A program made the position numbers and the translations under genes. Below, piece after piece: positions 24,013 through 46,296 of a stretch of 64,000 nucleotides of DNA. Each line of letters opens with the position of its first letter. The stretch's first letter is position 1. The stretch covers positions 2,604,001 through 2,668,000 of the forward strand of contig NZ_AP017569.1 in NCBI RefSeq assembly GCF_002355655.1, read 5' to 3'. Source of the stretch: Halorubrum trapanicum (lineage in GTDB: Archaea > Halobacteriota > Halobacteria > Halobacteriales > Haloferacaceae). A model generated the notes under the pieces. It was not told the origin of the DNA. It saw only the letters and a list, made by a program, of their open reading frames with translations, and did not search any database.

Positions 24013-24106
24013 ACTTTCGGATACGCCCCGGAGGGACTTGAATCGGCGCGGACACGGGTGTTACCGGGTCGGAATCGTCGGCGGAGACCGTCGATGGAAG
24101 GCCTCG

Positions 24107-24590
24107 ATTTATAAGTGACTGCGAGCGGCGGCGCCATTATTTATAGGCTCAGGCGGTGGCGCGTGCCTGCGAGCGGCCGCCCTCGGCGGCCGCGAGACGG
24201 CACGCGCGAGGGAGTCGGTCGCCGAGCGAAGCGACGGCGACCGACGAGGCTGGGGAGGCGAGAGGTGTTGTGCGGTGCGTTCCCGCGAGCGAAGCGAGCG
24301 GGAGCACGGAAGTCGCAGCCCGCGCAGCGACCGAAGGGAGCGAGCAGGAACGTCTTCCGGTGGTGCGGGGTGGGGCTCAAAGGGGCAGTCGCGAGGACGA
24401 AGCACGGCGTTCACGAGAGCAGAGCTCTCGTGAGCCAACCAGAACGCTTCGCGTTCTGGTGACGACGCAAGGACCGCAGGGAGGGGAGCGTTAGCGACCG
24501 ACCGAGGACCGCAGCGAGCCGCGCGAGTCCTCGCGACTGGGGCTTTGGAGATGTTCGCCGTCGATCTCCCGGCAACCATTTATAAATGAG
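24107..24590 (-). repeat. Structured repeat copy D (candidate ncRNA), largest copy
   Basis: Core 24153-24548 on the minus strand (396 bp), with TATA box TTTATAAAT at 24579-24588, 36 nt before it. The closing stem is CAGTCGCGAGGAC with GTCCTCGCGACTG: the same stem as copy A with one C-G pair changed to T-A on both arms. The variable hairpin is GTCGGTCGCCG with CGGCGACCGAC. Extra hairpins occur at 24411-24434 (as in copy C) and around 24440-24462 (CCAGAACGC with GCGTTCTGG). A 110-bp purine-rich expansion lies between 24270 and 24380. Its distal end points to the start of the VOC gene. The gap 24013-24713 holds nothing else except a TTTATAACT at 24631. Confidence 0.86.
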
Positions 24591-24713
24591 CGGCTGTGAA
24601 TTCGGAGGATTCACCGCTGGACCGCCTTCGTTTATAACTATCGTCGCGCATCCGTATCGACCGCAACTGAAGCGGAATACGCACGCTCGCTGGTGTTCAC
24701 CCGAACCGACCAA

Positions 24714-38710: not shown

Positions 38711-39198
38711 CACTTATAAATCGGGTTGTGTGTCGCTGTCGGCTATCAATACGTGATCGACGACGCGGTGACGATCTCGAAAGGGTCAGCCGCTCGTTTA
38801 TAAATACCTAACCGCGGATCGACGGAGACAACCTCCAAAGCTCCAGTCGATCGTTTATAAATGCCTGATCGCGGATCGACGGAGACAACCCCCAAAGCCC
38901 CAGCCGCGAGGACGGCGCACGCTCGTTGTCGTTCGAGACGCCAAAGGCGTCTCGTGATGACGAGAGAGCGAAGCCCTCTCGAGCCACGCGCTTCAGTCGC
39001 TCGCGTTGCTCGCTCCTTCCAGTGCTTACGTCGCCTGCGCCGTCCTCGCGGCTGCCCCTTTGAGTCCCACCCCGCGCCGCACAGCACCTCACGCCTCCCC
39101 AGCCTCGTCGCTGGCACCCTCCGCTTCGCTCCGGGAGCCAGCGACTCCCTCGCGCGTGCTCCTCGCGCCCGAGGGGCGCTCGGAGGCACACGCCACCG
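38711..39198 (+). repeat. Structured repeat copy F (candidate ncRNA) with two leader modules
   Basis: Leader modules repeat with a period of about 59 bp: TTTATAAATACC (38797) and TTTATAAATGCC (38854), each followed by GCGGATCGACGGAGACAAC and AAAGC(T/C)CCAG. The core is 38892-39198. The closing stem is 19 bp and perfect: CAGCCGCGAGGACGGCGCA with TGCGCCGTCCTCGCGGCTG. An extra hairpin, CGAGACGCC with GGCGTCTCG, lies at 38935-38960. The variable hairpin is GTCGCTGGC with GCCAGCGAC. The core ends 3 bp before the convergent stop of the site-2 protease gene. An additional TATA-like CTTATAAAT lies at 38713. It fills the gap 38567-39200. Confidence 0.88.
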
Positions 39199-39200
39199 CC

Positions 39201-41101
39201 TCAGATAACCCCGAGCGCGGTGAGGATCTGGTTGCCGAAGATCATCGCGACCAGCCCGGCCAGCATGACGAGCCCGGACGAGACCGTGATTGTCCGCACC
39301 GCGGCGTGTCGGTCGCTGATCGGGACCCGGCTGATCACCGCCTCGGCGACCATCCGGAGGATGCGACCGCCGTCGAGCGGGAACGCGGGGAGACAGTTGA
39401 ACAGCGCCAGCTGGATGTTGATCCACCCCGACCAGAAGAGGAGGTTCGCGAGCAGGAAGGTCCCGCCGCCGAGCGCCGCCAGCGGCCCCTCGACGACGAA
39501 GAAGTTGGTCAGCTCGCCGGTGAACCCCGCGAAGTTGAACGGGAGCCCGAAGAGGCTACCGAGCGGGAGGATGAGCGCGACGAACACTAAGCCGAGCGGC
39601 GACTCGGTGACCCCGCCGAGCGGGAGCCCGTCCGCGGCCTCCTGACCGCCGTCGCCGCCGAGCAGTTCGAGGTACGCGCCGGCGGGGTACTCGGTGACGC
39701 CTACGTCGTCGAGCGCGAGCCCGCTCGTCCCGGGGAAGACGCTCACGCCGATGAACCCGCCGCCGCGGTTCGGGTGCGCGGCGAGTTCCACGTCGTACGT
39801 GGTGCGCTCGCCGTCGGCGTCGTACACCGTGACGGGGACGGTCTCGCCCGGATCGCGGTCGACGAGAACGGCCGAGAGCGCCTCGTTGTTGACGACGCGC
39901 TCGCCGTCGACCGAGACGATCGTCAGCGGCTCGCCGAGGGGGGCGCCCTCGTCGTGGATCGGGCCCCCCTCCTGAACGCCGAGGACGTACGCGCCGATCG
40001 GGGCGTCGGGAACGGTGACGGCGCCCTCGCCGTCGGCCGTCTCGACGCCCGAGGCGTTCTCGGCGCCGGGCGCGTCCCGGACCTGGTCGAGGACGGTCGC
40101 GTTCCCCGTCACCGTCAGCGTCGCGCGCTCGTCGCCGCCGACCGCGTCGAAGAAGTCGGACTCGGTGGCGACCGGCTCGCCGTTCACGGCCGCGATCGTC
40201 ACCGGCTGCTCCTCGATCGTCACGCCGAGGGGGTTACCGCCGGCTGATCCGACCACCTGTAGCTCGCGGTCGACGGTCACCGTCTCCCGCGTCTCGCCGT
40301 CGTCGACGGTGAGCGCGACCGACTCGCCCGCGTCGGCGATCGCGGATTCGAACTCGCCGCTCGTCTCGATCGGCGTCCCCGCCACCTCGACGATCCGGTC
40401 GCCCTGCGAGAGGTCGGCCGCGGCCGCCGGGGAGCCGGGGTTCACCTCGCCGACCGCGTAGCCGGCGGCGGGCGAGATCGCGCCGACGACGGGGCCGAAG
40501 AGGAGCGCGAAGACGACGATCGTCAGCACCGTGTTCGCGGTGACGCCGGCCGCGAACATCCGGGCGCGGGCGCCGCGGGACGCCTCCTGGGTCGCCTCCT
40601 CGTCCGGCTCGACGAACGCGCCGACCGGGAGGAGCGCGAAGAAGACGAGCCCCATCGAGTCGATGTCGATGTCCTCGACCCGGCAGAGCAGGCCGTGCGC
40701 GCCCTCGTGGACCACCATCGCGCCGGCGAGGCCGGCGACGATCTCGGGCGCGACCGATAGCGGGAGGAAGTCGTTGACGCCGGGGATGATGAGGAAGTTC
40801 TGCGGCTGCTGGATCGCGGAGGGCTGCGCGTTCGAGAACGCTGACATCGCCGACGAGAGGATGAGCGCGAACGACGCCACCATCGCCACCAGGGCCCCCC
40901 GAGCCCGAGGTTGGCGACCGCGCGCCAGAACCGCTTCGGCGCCGCCAGTCGGCCGAGGAAGGCCCGCCCGCGGAGCGTCCGGAGGGTCAACACCGGTCCC
41001 GAGACCCTGAACGCGTCCGGGAGGATCCCATTGTTCCGCAGCCACATCGCGACCGCGGAGTACGCGAGGACCCCCGTAAGCACCCAGAACAACGTGTTCA
41101 T
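39201..41101 (-). pseudogene. Site-2 protease (M50) with two PDZ domains, apparent 1-nt frameshift
   Basis: Intramembrane metalloprotease. Residues 1-68 read from ATG at 41099-41101 (MNTLFWVLTGVLAYSAVAMW, then RAVANLGLG). At a six-G tract (40895-40900) the frame is lost; one extra G would restore ALVAMVASFALILSSAMSAF and the rest. Downstream are the zinc motif MVVHEGAHGLL (HExxH), two PDZ-like repeats (GYAVGEVNPGSPAAAADLSQ and GVQEGGPIHDEG...), and the late LPAFPLDGGRIL with the third ligand Asp. All else is full length, so this is either a recent frameshift, a phase-variable tract or a homopolymer error. It would act on membrane-bound regulators. Confidence 0.8.
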
Positions 41102-44954: not shown

Positions 44955-45706
44955 TCGTCGAAGGTCCACTCCCGCAGGGCCTGCCGGACGAAGTCGCCCT
45001 CGACCTCGCGGAAGTGGTTGTCCGAGCCGTCGTGGTCGCCGAACTCCCAGTCGCGGACGACGACGACCGGGGTGCCCCCGTCGCCCTCGCCCGCGACGAG
45101 GTTGGCGGCCGCGGCGAGCTCGTCGATCACGTTCTGGACGGTGACGCCCATCTCGCGGCCGTCGCGGTCCGTCTCTCCGCGCCAGTCGCGGCTGGCGGGC
45201 AGGCCGGCCCAGCCGATCGCGACGCCGCGCTGGCCGTGGCGGAACGGGCGCCCGCAGGTGTCGCTGACGACGACGCGGTCGGCCGCGAGCCCCTCGCGGA
45301 TGCGCTCCGCGCTCTCCGAGGGGCGTTCCGGGAGCAGCAGCAGGTCGCCGTCGGGGACGTTCGAGCGGTCGATCCCGGCGTTGACGCCGATGTGGCCGAA
45401 GCGCGTCGCGGTGAGGAGGAAGGGGGCCTCCATGAGGAGCTCCGTCGACTCCTCGATGACGGCCTGCGCGAAGCGCGGGTCCTTCTCCTCTCCCGAAATC
45501 TCCGCGAGCCGGTCGGCGACCGCCTCCGCTCGCGGGCTCGCCGGGAAGTCGTCGAGGTCGAAGACGCGGCCCTCCGCCTTCGAGACGACCGTGCTGGCGA
45601 CGACGACCACGTCCTCGGCGCGGAGGTCGACGCGCTCGTCGATCATGGCCGCGAGGTCGTCTCCCTCCCGGATCTCCGGGAGGTCCGGAACCGCGAACAG
45701 CTCCAT
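44951..45706 (-). CDS. cofE: Coenzyme F420-0:L-glutamate ligase
   Basis: 251 aa. Adds gamma-linked glutamates to F420-0 with GTP. Family landmarks: FAVPDLPEIREGDDLAAMI, VVVASTVVSKAEGRVFDL (the K-x-E-G motif), DPRFAQAVIEEST, GIDRSNVPDGDLLLLP and the long conserved VVVSDTCGRPFRHGQRGVAIG (divided here: SDTCGRP and RHGQRGVAIG) which binds GTP/Mn. The first Met residue at 45704-45706 starts MELFAVPDLPE. It overlaps mer by 4 bp, and repeat copy G lies upstream, with its distal end about 125 bp from the start codon. Confidence 0.9.
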   Translation of the reverse strand: MELFAVPDLPEIREGDDLAAMIDERVDLRAEDVVVVASTVVSKAEGRVFDLDDFPASPRAEAVADRLAEISGEEKDPRFAQAVIEESTELLMEAPFLLTATRFGHIGVNAGIDRSNVPDGDLLLLPERPSESAERIREGLAADRVVVSDTCGRPFRHGQRGVAIGWAGLPASRDWRGETDRDGREMGVTVQNVIDELAAAANLVAGEGDGGTPVVVVRDWEFGDHDGSDNHFREVEGDFVRQALREWTFDE

Positions 45707-45818
45707 ACGAACACCTGCGCGGCGACGAGGAAAAACCCCGCCGGTACCGGGCCGGTTTGACGGTATCGGGATACAGTGGTGAAACGGAGAGTTCGAGTCC
45801 GAGCGGGCGACGAACACT

Positions 45819-46082
45819 TATAAACCGAACTGCGGTGGCGCGCGCCTCCGAGCGCCCGACAGGGCGCGAGGAGCCCGTGCGAGGGAGTCAGTCGCCGGAG
45901 CGAAGCGGAGGCGACTGACGAGGCTGGGGAGGTGTGAGGTGCGGGGCCGTGCGGGGCGGGGTGGGGCTCAAAGGGGCAGCCGCGAGACGGGCGCAGGCGA
46001 CGTAAGCACCGCAACGAGGGAGCGGTAGCGACCGAGTGAGGAGCGCAGCGAGCGTGCGCCCGTCTCGCGGCTGGGGCTTTGG
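45819..46082 (-). repeat. Structured repeat copy G (candidate ncRNA), core
   Basis: Core 45831-46082, minus strand, preceded on that strand by CATAAATCTC (46111-46120), about 33 nt before it. The closing stem is 19 bp and perfect: CAGCCGCGAGACGGGCGCA with TGCGCCCGTCTCGCGGCTG. Compared with copy F, bases change on both arms. The variable hairpin is GTCAGTCGCC with GGCGACTGAC. The opposite-strand TATA box at 45817 (CTTATAAAC) mirrors copy B. Together with the tandem array it fills the gap 45707-46368. Confidence 0.87.
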
Positions 46083-46296
46083 AGGAGTTCTTCGTCGATC
46101 CACTGTCAGAGATTTATGACCGAGCGGCTGGGGCTTTGGAGGAGTTCTTCGTCGATCCACAGTCAGAGATTTATGACTGAGCGGCTGGGGCTTTGGAGGA
46201 GTTCTTCGTCGATCCACAGTCAGAGATTTATGACTGAGCGGCTGGGGCTTTGGAAGTGTTCGCCGCCGATCTGCCGCCGGCTGGTTATAAAGAGGA
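46068..46296 (-). repeat. Tandem array of 57-bp promoter/leader modules upstream of copy G
   Basis: Starts of the word CGGCTGGGGCTTT lie at 46068, 46125, 46182 and 46239: three full units and a partial fourth. On the minus strand each unit reads TCATAAATCTCTGAC, then GTGGATCGACGAAGAAC, then CCAAAGCCCCAGCCG. Each has a TATA-like box about 33 nt before the AAAGCCCCAG start. Units 2 and 3 are almost identical and unit 1 differs by about two bases; the partial unit is diverged and ends at GGTTATAAAG (about 46285). Confidence 0.9.

Follow-up and report, generated by a model that had tools for sequence, protein, structure and literature searches.

A stretch of Halorubrum trapanicum DNA of 64,000 nucleotides (hereafter the window) contains at 46068-46295 a head-to-tail array of 57-bp units, which raises the question of what such an array belongs to and what it does. 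A sequence-only reading had described promoter or leader modules, recently expanded, that could amplify transcription in the manner of the stacked promoters before rRNA operons. Our analysis suggests that the array probably forms the 5′ part of a palindromic, MITE/REP-type element that is dispersed between genes and has a promoter-like, length-variable front module.

Three full units and a diverged fourth

TRF reported a period of 57 with 3.4 copies and 97% matches at 46067-46261. The array runs leftwards on the minus strand, from 46295 to 46068, and the motif AAAGCCCCAGCC recurs in it at 46069, 46126, 46183 and 46240. When one mismatch is allowed, the window holds 13 copies of this motif compared with 0.07 expected, and no shuffle equals 13. 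The units are as follows:

46239..46295, minus strand: outermost, diverged 57-bp unit (TTTATAACC ... GATCGGCGGCGAACAC ... CAAAGCCCCAGCCG), in exact 57-bp register and fitting the genome-wide unit consensus
46182..46238, minus strand: inner 57-bp unit, identical to the unit at 46125..46181 (TRF and unit comparison)
46125..46181, minus strand: inner 57-bp unit, identical to the unit at 46182..46238 (TRF and unit comparison)
46068..46124, minus strand: hairpin-proximal 57-bp unit, with two differences from the inner units (TRF and unit comparison)

The array proposed earlier is therefore present, and its second and third units, described as nearly identical, are identical. Two features ascribed to every unit take a different form in the outermost one: the three full units have the TATA-like box TCATAAATC and the middle GATCGACG, and the outermost unit has TTTATAACC and GATCGGCG in their place. 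A coding function for the array was rejected, as the unit frames, read by eye, appear to be closed by stops.

A dispersed element with three hairpins

The final 14 bases of the unit at 46068-46124 form the 5′ outer strand of a hairpin, P1. This hairpin is followed by two others and by a TATA-like box:

45969..46081, minus strand: hairpin P1, with a CAAAG/CTTTG outer helix, a 3x3 CCC/CCC internal loop, a long variable stem and an inner stem-loop (covariation, fold z-scores)
45887..45932, minus strand: hairpin P2, with the conserved leader CCTCCCCAGCCTC (85% paired, compared with 67.5 ± 1.2% when shuffled)
45838..45882, minus strand: hairpin P3, running from a CGAGCACGCG-type arm to the arm GGAGGCGCGCGCC (conserved anchors in most copies)
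45817..45825, minus strand: TATA-like box GTTTATAAG past the 3′ end of the element (found in 48 of the 73 elements whose 3′ end could be recognised)

The order (57-bp unit)n-P1-P2-P3 recurs in the genome, usually with the TATA-like box following after some 8 nt. Its 3.08 Mb contain at least 157 exact copies of the motif, at least 226 matches of GRCTGGGGCTTT with one degenerate position and at least 141 occurrences of the second arm CTGCCCCTTTGA. Clustering gave at least 139 elements on the main chromosome, a lower bound that leaves out mainly reverse-strand sites beyond 2.43 Mb, and detailed reading covered 80 genome stretches plus the window. Like MITEs, the approximately 139 copies are dispersed, short (span mostly 280-590 bp), non-coding and transposase-free; of 102 elements, 99 overlap no gene by more than 20 bp, and only three do. 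P1 is itself an inverted repeat, but in Halorubrum it does not stand at both ends of the element.

Arrays similar to that of copy G had been reported before five other copies in the window. The set is less uniform than claimed:

Copy A: two motif matches at 66 bp
Copy B: three motif matches
Copy E: two motif matches at ~54 bp, hairpin lost
Copy F: two motif matches at 57 bp
Copy H: one intact unit and one decayed unit

One array elsewhere (G000:C1:1970628-1970749) has a period of 55 bp, not 57. A recurring unit subtype, for example CTCGGCGATACACAGG or CTCGGCTGTACGTAGG (L074 and the H-site of G045), carries CGGC(G/T)(A/G)TAC in place of TATA. A replication-strand bias was considered and discarded, as the switches of orientation along the chromosome look random (61 vs 63.5).

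Among 56 paralogues, 16 of the 29 base pairs of P1 have changed on both sides, in a total of 197 cells. None of 500 shuffles scored as high, and slid structures collapse. The proportion of paired cells, 97.9%, is flattered by the derivation of the structure from the same alignment, and more weight attaches to the two-sided changes. Fold z-scores for P1 range from -6.6 to -7.4. P2 shows covariation too. At site H, 13 species carry 12 different arms, yet self-complementarity is mostly kept (0.89 for an arm's own pair vs 0.64 for cross pairs). An Rfam scan of the window gave no matches above the gathering score and a tRNA scan of it gave nothing. The open-access literature searched, outside which most subscription papers lie, contains no description of the element.

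The TATA-like box at the 3′ end may be a second promoter or a part of the element. Its occurrence is independent of the direction of the downstream gene, and we rejected it as a neighbouring gene's promoter. It is sometimes trailed about 32 nt on by ATTTAAATA.

An old hairpin and a Halorubrum module

A covariance model of P1 hit 71 of the 97 relatives, spread over 18 of 33 genera, in a screen of at most 36 candidates per genome, for which reason per-genome counts are not copy numbers. The array has a far narrower distribution. Pairs spaced by exactly 57 bp were seen in 37 of the 97 genomes, all from one genus, and among 84,980 species searched, arrays of at least three 57-bp units were confined to Halorubrum and one uncultured archaeon, A07HR67. 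Moreover, in eight genomes of other genera, none of 29 loci had a TATA sequence within 45 nt upstream of P1. Given the lack of TATA elsewhere and the limited range of the arrays, the promoter-like 57-bp module seems to have been added in Halorubrum to an element of greater age. A viral origin was rejected: no phage record matches the element, none of the three-unit arrays lies in a viral contig, and the sole Halorubrum PATE compared (HRTV-DL1) is without the motif.

Inverted pairs of the hairpins are frequent in other haloarchaeal genera, for example P1-P2-P3 followed by the reversed set (L120, L171, L187, L182, L190).

Promoter-like geometry of the unit

In each 57-bp unit a TATA box and a -10 ‘WW’ are spaced as in haloarchaeal promoters, and the unit closes with CAAAGCCCCAGCCG, which is the P1 5′ strand. 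TATAA is located 37 nt ahead of CAAAG in 74 of 103 last units and is found by a loose pattern in 87 of them; about 14-17% of units have no TATA. If transcription starts at the conserved G of GAAC, as presumed here, the TATA box is at about -29 to -23. An AT pair is conserved at -9/-8 (AT 0.84 and 0.76), as counted in 153 units selected for TATAA and with the start position assumed, not measured. The haloarchaeal consensus, as given in PMC4983044, comprises TATA, ‘WW’ at -10 and a BRE of CGAAA, and the unit matches the first two of these three; CGAAA is absent from the units, which have a CTCGC-type sequence directly upstream of TATA. The geometry is thus promoter-like, as the earlier reading held, and it is plausible that the 57-bp unit is a promoter module. 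Its most likely use would be as the start of transcripts that run into the element rather than into genes.

One use of this kind would be the production of a multicopy structured non-coding RNA from stacked promoters, with transcription beginning at each unit some 9 nt ahead of the hairpin and the amount of RNA growing with unit number. We regard this as possible but unlikely. The fixed TATA-to-hairpin distance, the -10 and start-like conservation and the strong covariation of the hairpin all agree with it. There are also precedents in HF2 repeats of similar length that are proven promoters (PMC8707807) and in the rRNA operon of Halobacterium cutirubrum, where several promoters lie in series (quoted in PMC4983044). 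However, the hairpin occurs without TATA in other genera, one-sided wobble changes are almost absent from it, unlike in a typical RNA, and the window gave no Rfam match.

A fixed register and a variable number of units

Of 91 spacings between neighbouring motifs, 85 are exactly 57 bp, and an intact or relic motif is found 57 bp upstream in 75% of elements, compared with 0-3% at other offsets. This register is held by units that differ considerably in sequence, with those of different arrays sharing approximately 56% identity over 43 variable bases. Within arrays of at least three units, neighbours are 93% identical when the outermost unit is left out, vs 59% for the pair that includes it. The nearest relative of a unit is in the same array in 39 of 146 cases, vs 1.5 by chance.

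We compared a 400-kb stretch of a related species (G038), excluding two non-syntenic matches; the aligned flanks are mostly 87-96% identical. Nine of 11 syntenic sites carry the element, with the same orientation in all nine, and unit number differs at six of the nine and is thus not constant among relatives. In 29 other species, sites G and H display from one to four units, absence or deletion remnants. Species lacking an intact element there have deletion remnants or different sequence instead of a clean empty site. In L125, L126, L131 and L132, site G is occupied by another conserved sequence, possibly a small gene, suggestive of replacement rather than of an empty site.

The near-identical inner units and the differences in unit number between species at the same site support the conclusion that the arrays change length, as the proposal of recent expansion had implied. 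Growth with a polarity toward the hairpin was considered and rejected. A first count favoured it by 79 to 3, but without the outermost unit this became 16 to 8, with 16 ties. The first count was misleading because the exchanged interval does not include the outermost unit. If copies of the 14-bp motif exchange with each other, what is copied is the sequence from one motif to the next and not that beyond the first motif, and the high identity of inner neighbours is in keeping with this.

Repeat dynamics alone might account for the array, as a neutral minisatellite formed by slippage beside a long palindrome with the TATA box hitchhiking, and we treat this as a possible but less likely alternative. 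It is consistent with the varying unit number and the homogenised inner units, and also with two loci of other genera where tandem arrays of 38 bp and 50 bp, without TATA, occupy the same place beside P1. Against it, strongly diverged units hold an exact 57-bp register, and the TATA positions are more conserved than their neighbours.

Fixed mismatches in P1

The P1 consensus retains the 3x3 CCC/CCC loop, a T-T mismatch and TC/TC mismatches, and the persistence of these features indicates that the palindrome is not simply being perfected. The scarcity of one-sided wobble changes points to DNA-level events or whole-arm exchange, not to ordinary RNA evolution. The purine strand of P1 folds with C(GNA)G triloops and contains 288 tandem GA/GA mismatches, and an asymmetry between G-U and A-C gave no decision on which strand is structured.

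P1 might accordingly be imagined as folded single-stranded DNA or a cruciform for a recombinase or replication protein, with the 57-bp units as extra binding sites for the same protein, although we consider this rather improbable. The purine-strand folds, the fixed mismatches and the two-sided changes without wobble intermediates would fit such a role. So would the inverted pairs of other genera and the conservation of the motif, which is nearly as high in inner units as in the last unit (among matches chosen by motif). Whole-arm replacement between copies, however, can also make wobble changes scarce.

In some copies, the P1 loop appears inverted between its arms (L056, a plus-strand element; L114:6201-6326; the H-site of G030, L150). 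Double-hairpin cassettes recur in the loops of P1 and P2, for example GGCGCTTCGCGCC with GAGAGCTTCGCTCTC and GAACGCGAAGCGTTC with CACGAGAGCTCTGCTCTCGTG; examples are copy F (window 38740-39250), copy D (24100-24640), L043, L045, L147 and L148.

Genomic context

With neighbouring genes called by a simple codon-usage script, 39 of 102 elements lie between convergent genes vs 12 between divergent genes (p = 0.0002), and 51 lie between codirectional genes. The convergent preference could reflect transcription terminators or insulators, but we judge this improbable: half of the elements are found between codirectional genes, a scan of the bacterial type detected no T-run terminator in the element, and insertions are in any event least damaging between convergent genes.

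The proposal that the array amplifies neighbouring genes as before rRNA operons is very unlikely to hold, for although the array at this locus aims at an F420 ligase-like gene starting at 45706, only 40 of 102 elements have a downstream gene in their own direction, three hairpins intervene, CGAAA is absent and other genera have the same hairpin without TATA. The convergent preference and the lack of aim at gene starts argue against the elements being promoters of neighbouring genes.

A model for the element and its relation to known repeats

For the preferred reading of a palindromic element with a variable front module, we propose the following course of events. The ancient core common to haloarchaea would be P1, a long imperfect hairpin with fixed mismatches; in Halorubrum two further hairpins come after it. 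There, the sequence just outside P1 would have become the 57-bp module, with its TATA/-10/start geometry and the 14-bp outer strand CAAAGCCCCAGCCG. An ancestral two-module state may have fixed the register. Unequal exchange or slippage between 14-bp motif copies, the exchange presumably proceeding via the motif, would then add or remove modules, so that the inner ones become identical and the outermost stays old. The modules would start transcription into the element and not into genes, and the dispersion of the copies suggests that the element was once mobile. Some observations sit less easily with this reading. Sites are conserved between species, with no sign of recent movement, and neither a transposase partner nor a target-site duplication was seen. 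The units have no BRE, and some have no TATA. The homogenisation of inner units could also reflect conversion by other loci, although a unit's nearest relative is often in its own array.

A further-reaching version, which we hold to be doubtful, would make this an uncatalogued haloarchaea-wide palindromic family whose folded strand with fixed mismatches is under selection, and the length of the promoter stacks in Halorubrum would tune either a multicopy non-coding RNA or some DNA-processing event.

REP/BIME-type repeats of bacteria are intergenic palindromes, and the inverted pairs in some genera are a likeness to them, whereas the Halorubrum element has a much longer hairpin with fixed internal loops. 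We describe it as a MITE/REP-like element with a minisatellite. In its workings it comes closest to BrickBuilt, a MITE of Porphyromonas gingivalis with an internal minisatellite (PMC4596501) that is likewise dispersed, intergenic and limited to a genus or species, and has fixed-length head-to-tail repeats, leader and tail parts and promoter elements. BrickBuilt has a 23-bp unit, 19 copies and small inverted-repeat ends, whereas the Halorubrum element is archaeal, with 57-bp units outside the palindrome and ~139 copies. The PATEs, MITEs and SMRs of Haloquadratum walsbyi (PMC3119063) are also numerous, short, transposase-free, palindrome-bearing haloarchaeal repeats, but no tandem promoter-like arrays are described there and PATEs are tied to IS605-type ends.

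The class I intergenic repeats of halovirus HF2 (PMC8707807), which are 56-58 bp long, carry TATA and a start motif, belong to a Halorubrum setting and are proven promoters, establish that TATA-bearing repeats of this length can be real haloarchaeal promoters. They differ from the element as single dispersed viral copies with other motifs. The tandem promoters of haloarchaeal rRNA operons, as quoted in PMC4983044, similarly place archaeal promoters in series ahead of a structured RNA, but as a single-operon arrangement that drives rRNA, with no dispersed palindrome family in that account.

The P1 core, present in many haloarchaeal genera and without an Rfam match in the window, is a widespread, strongly covarying archaeal repeat whose role could be learned from transcriptome or mobility data. 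In addition, approximately 140 promoter-like arrays of varied length, many at sites common to several species, would constitute a natural series for the output of promoter stacking in archaea, and the same series would provide a measure of repeat-array turnover in these organisms.
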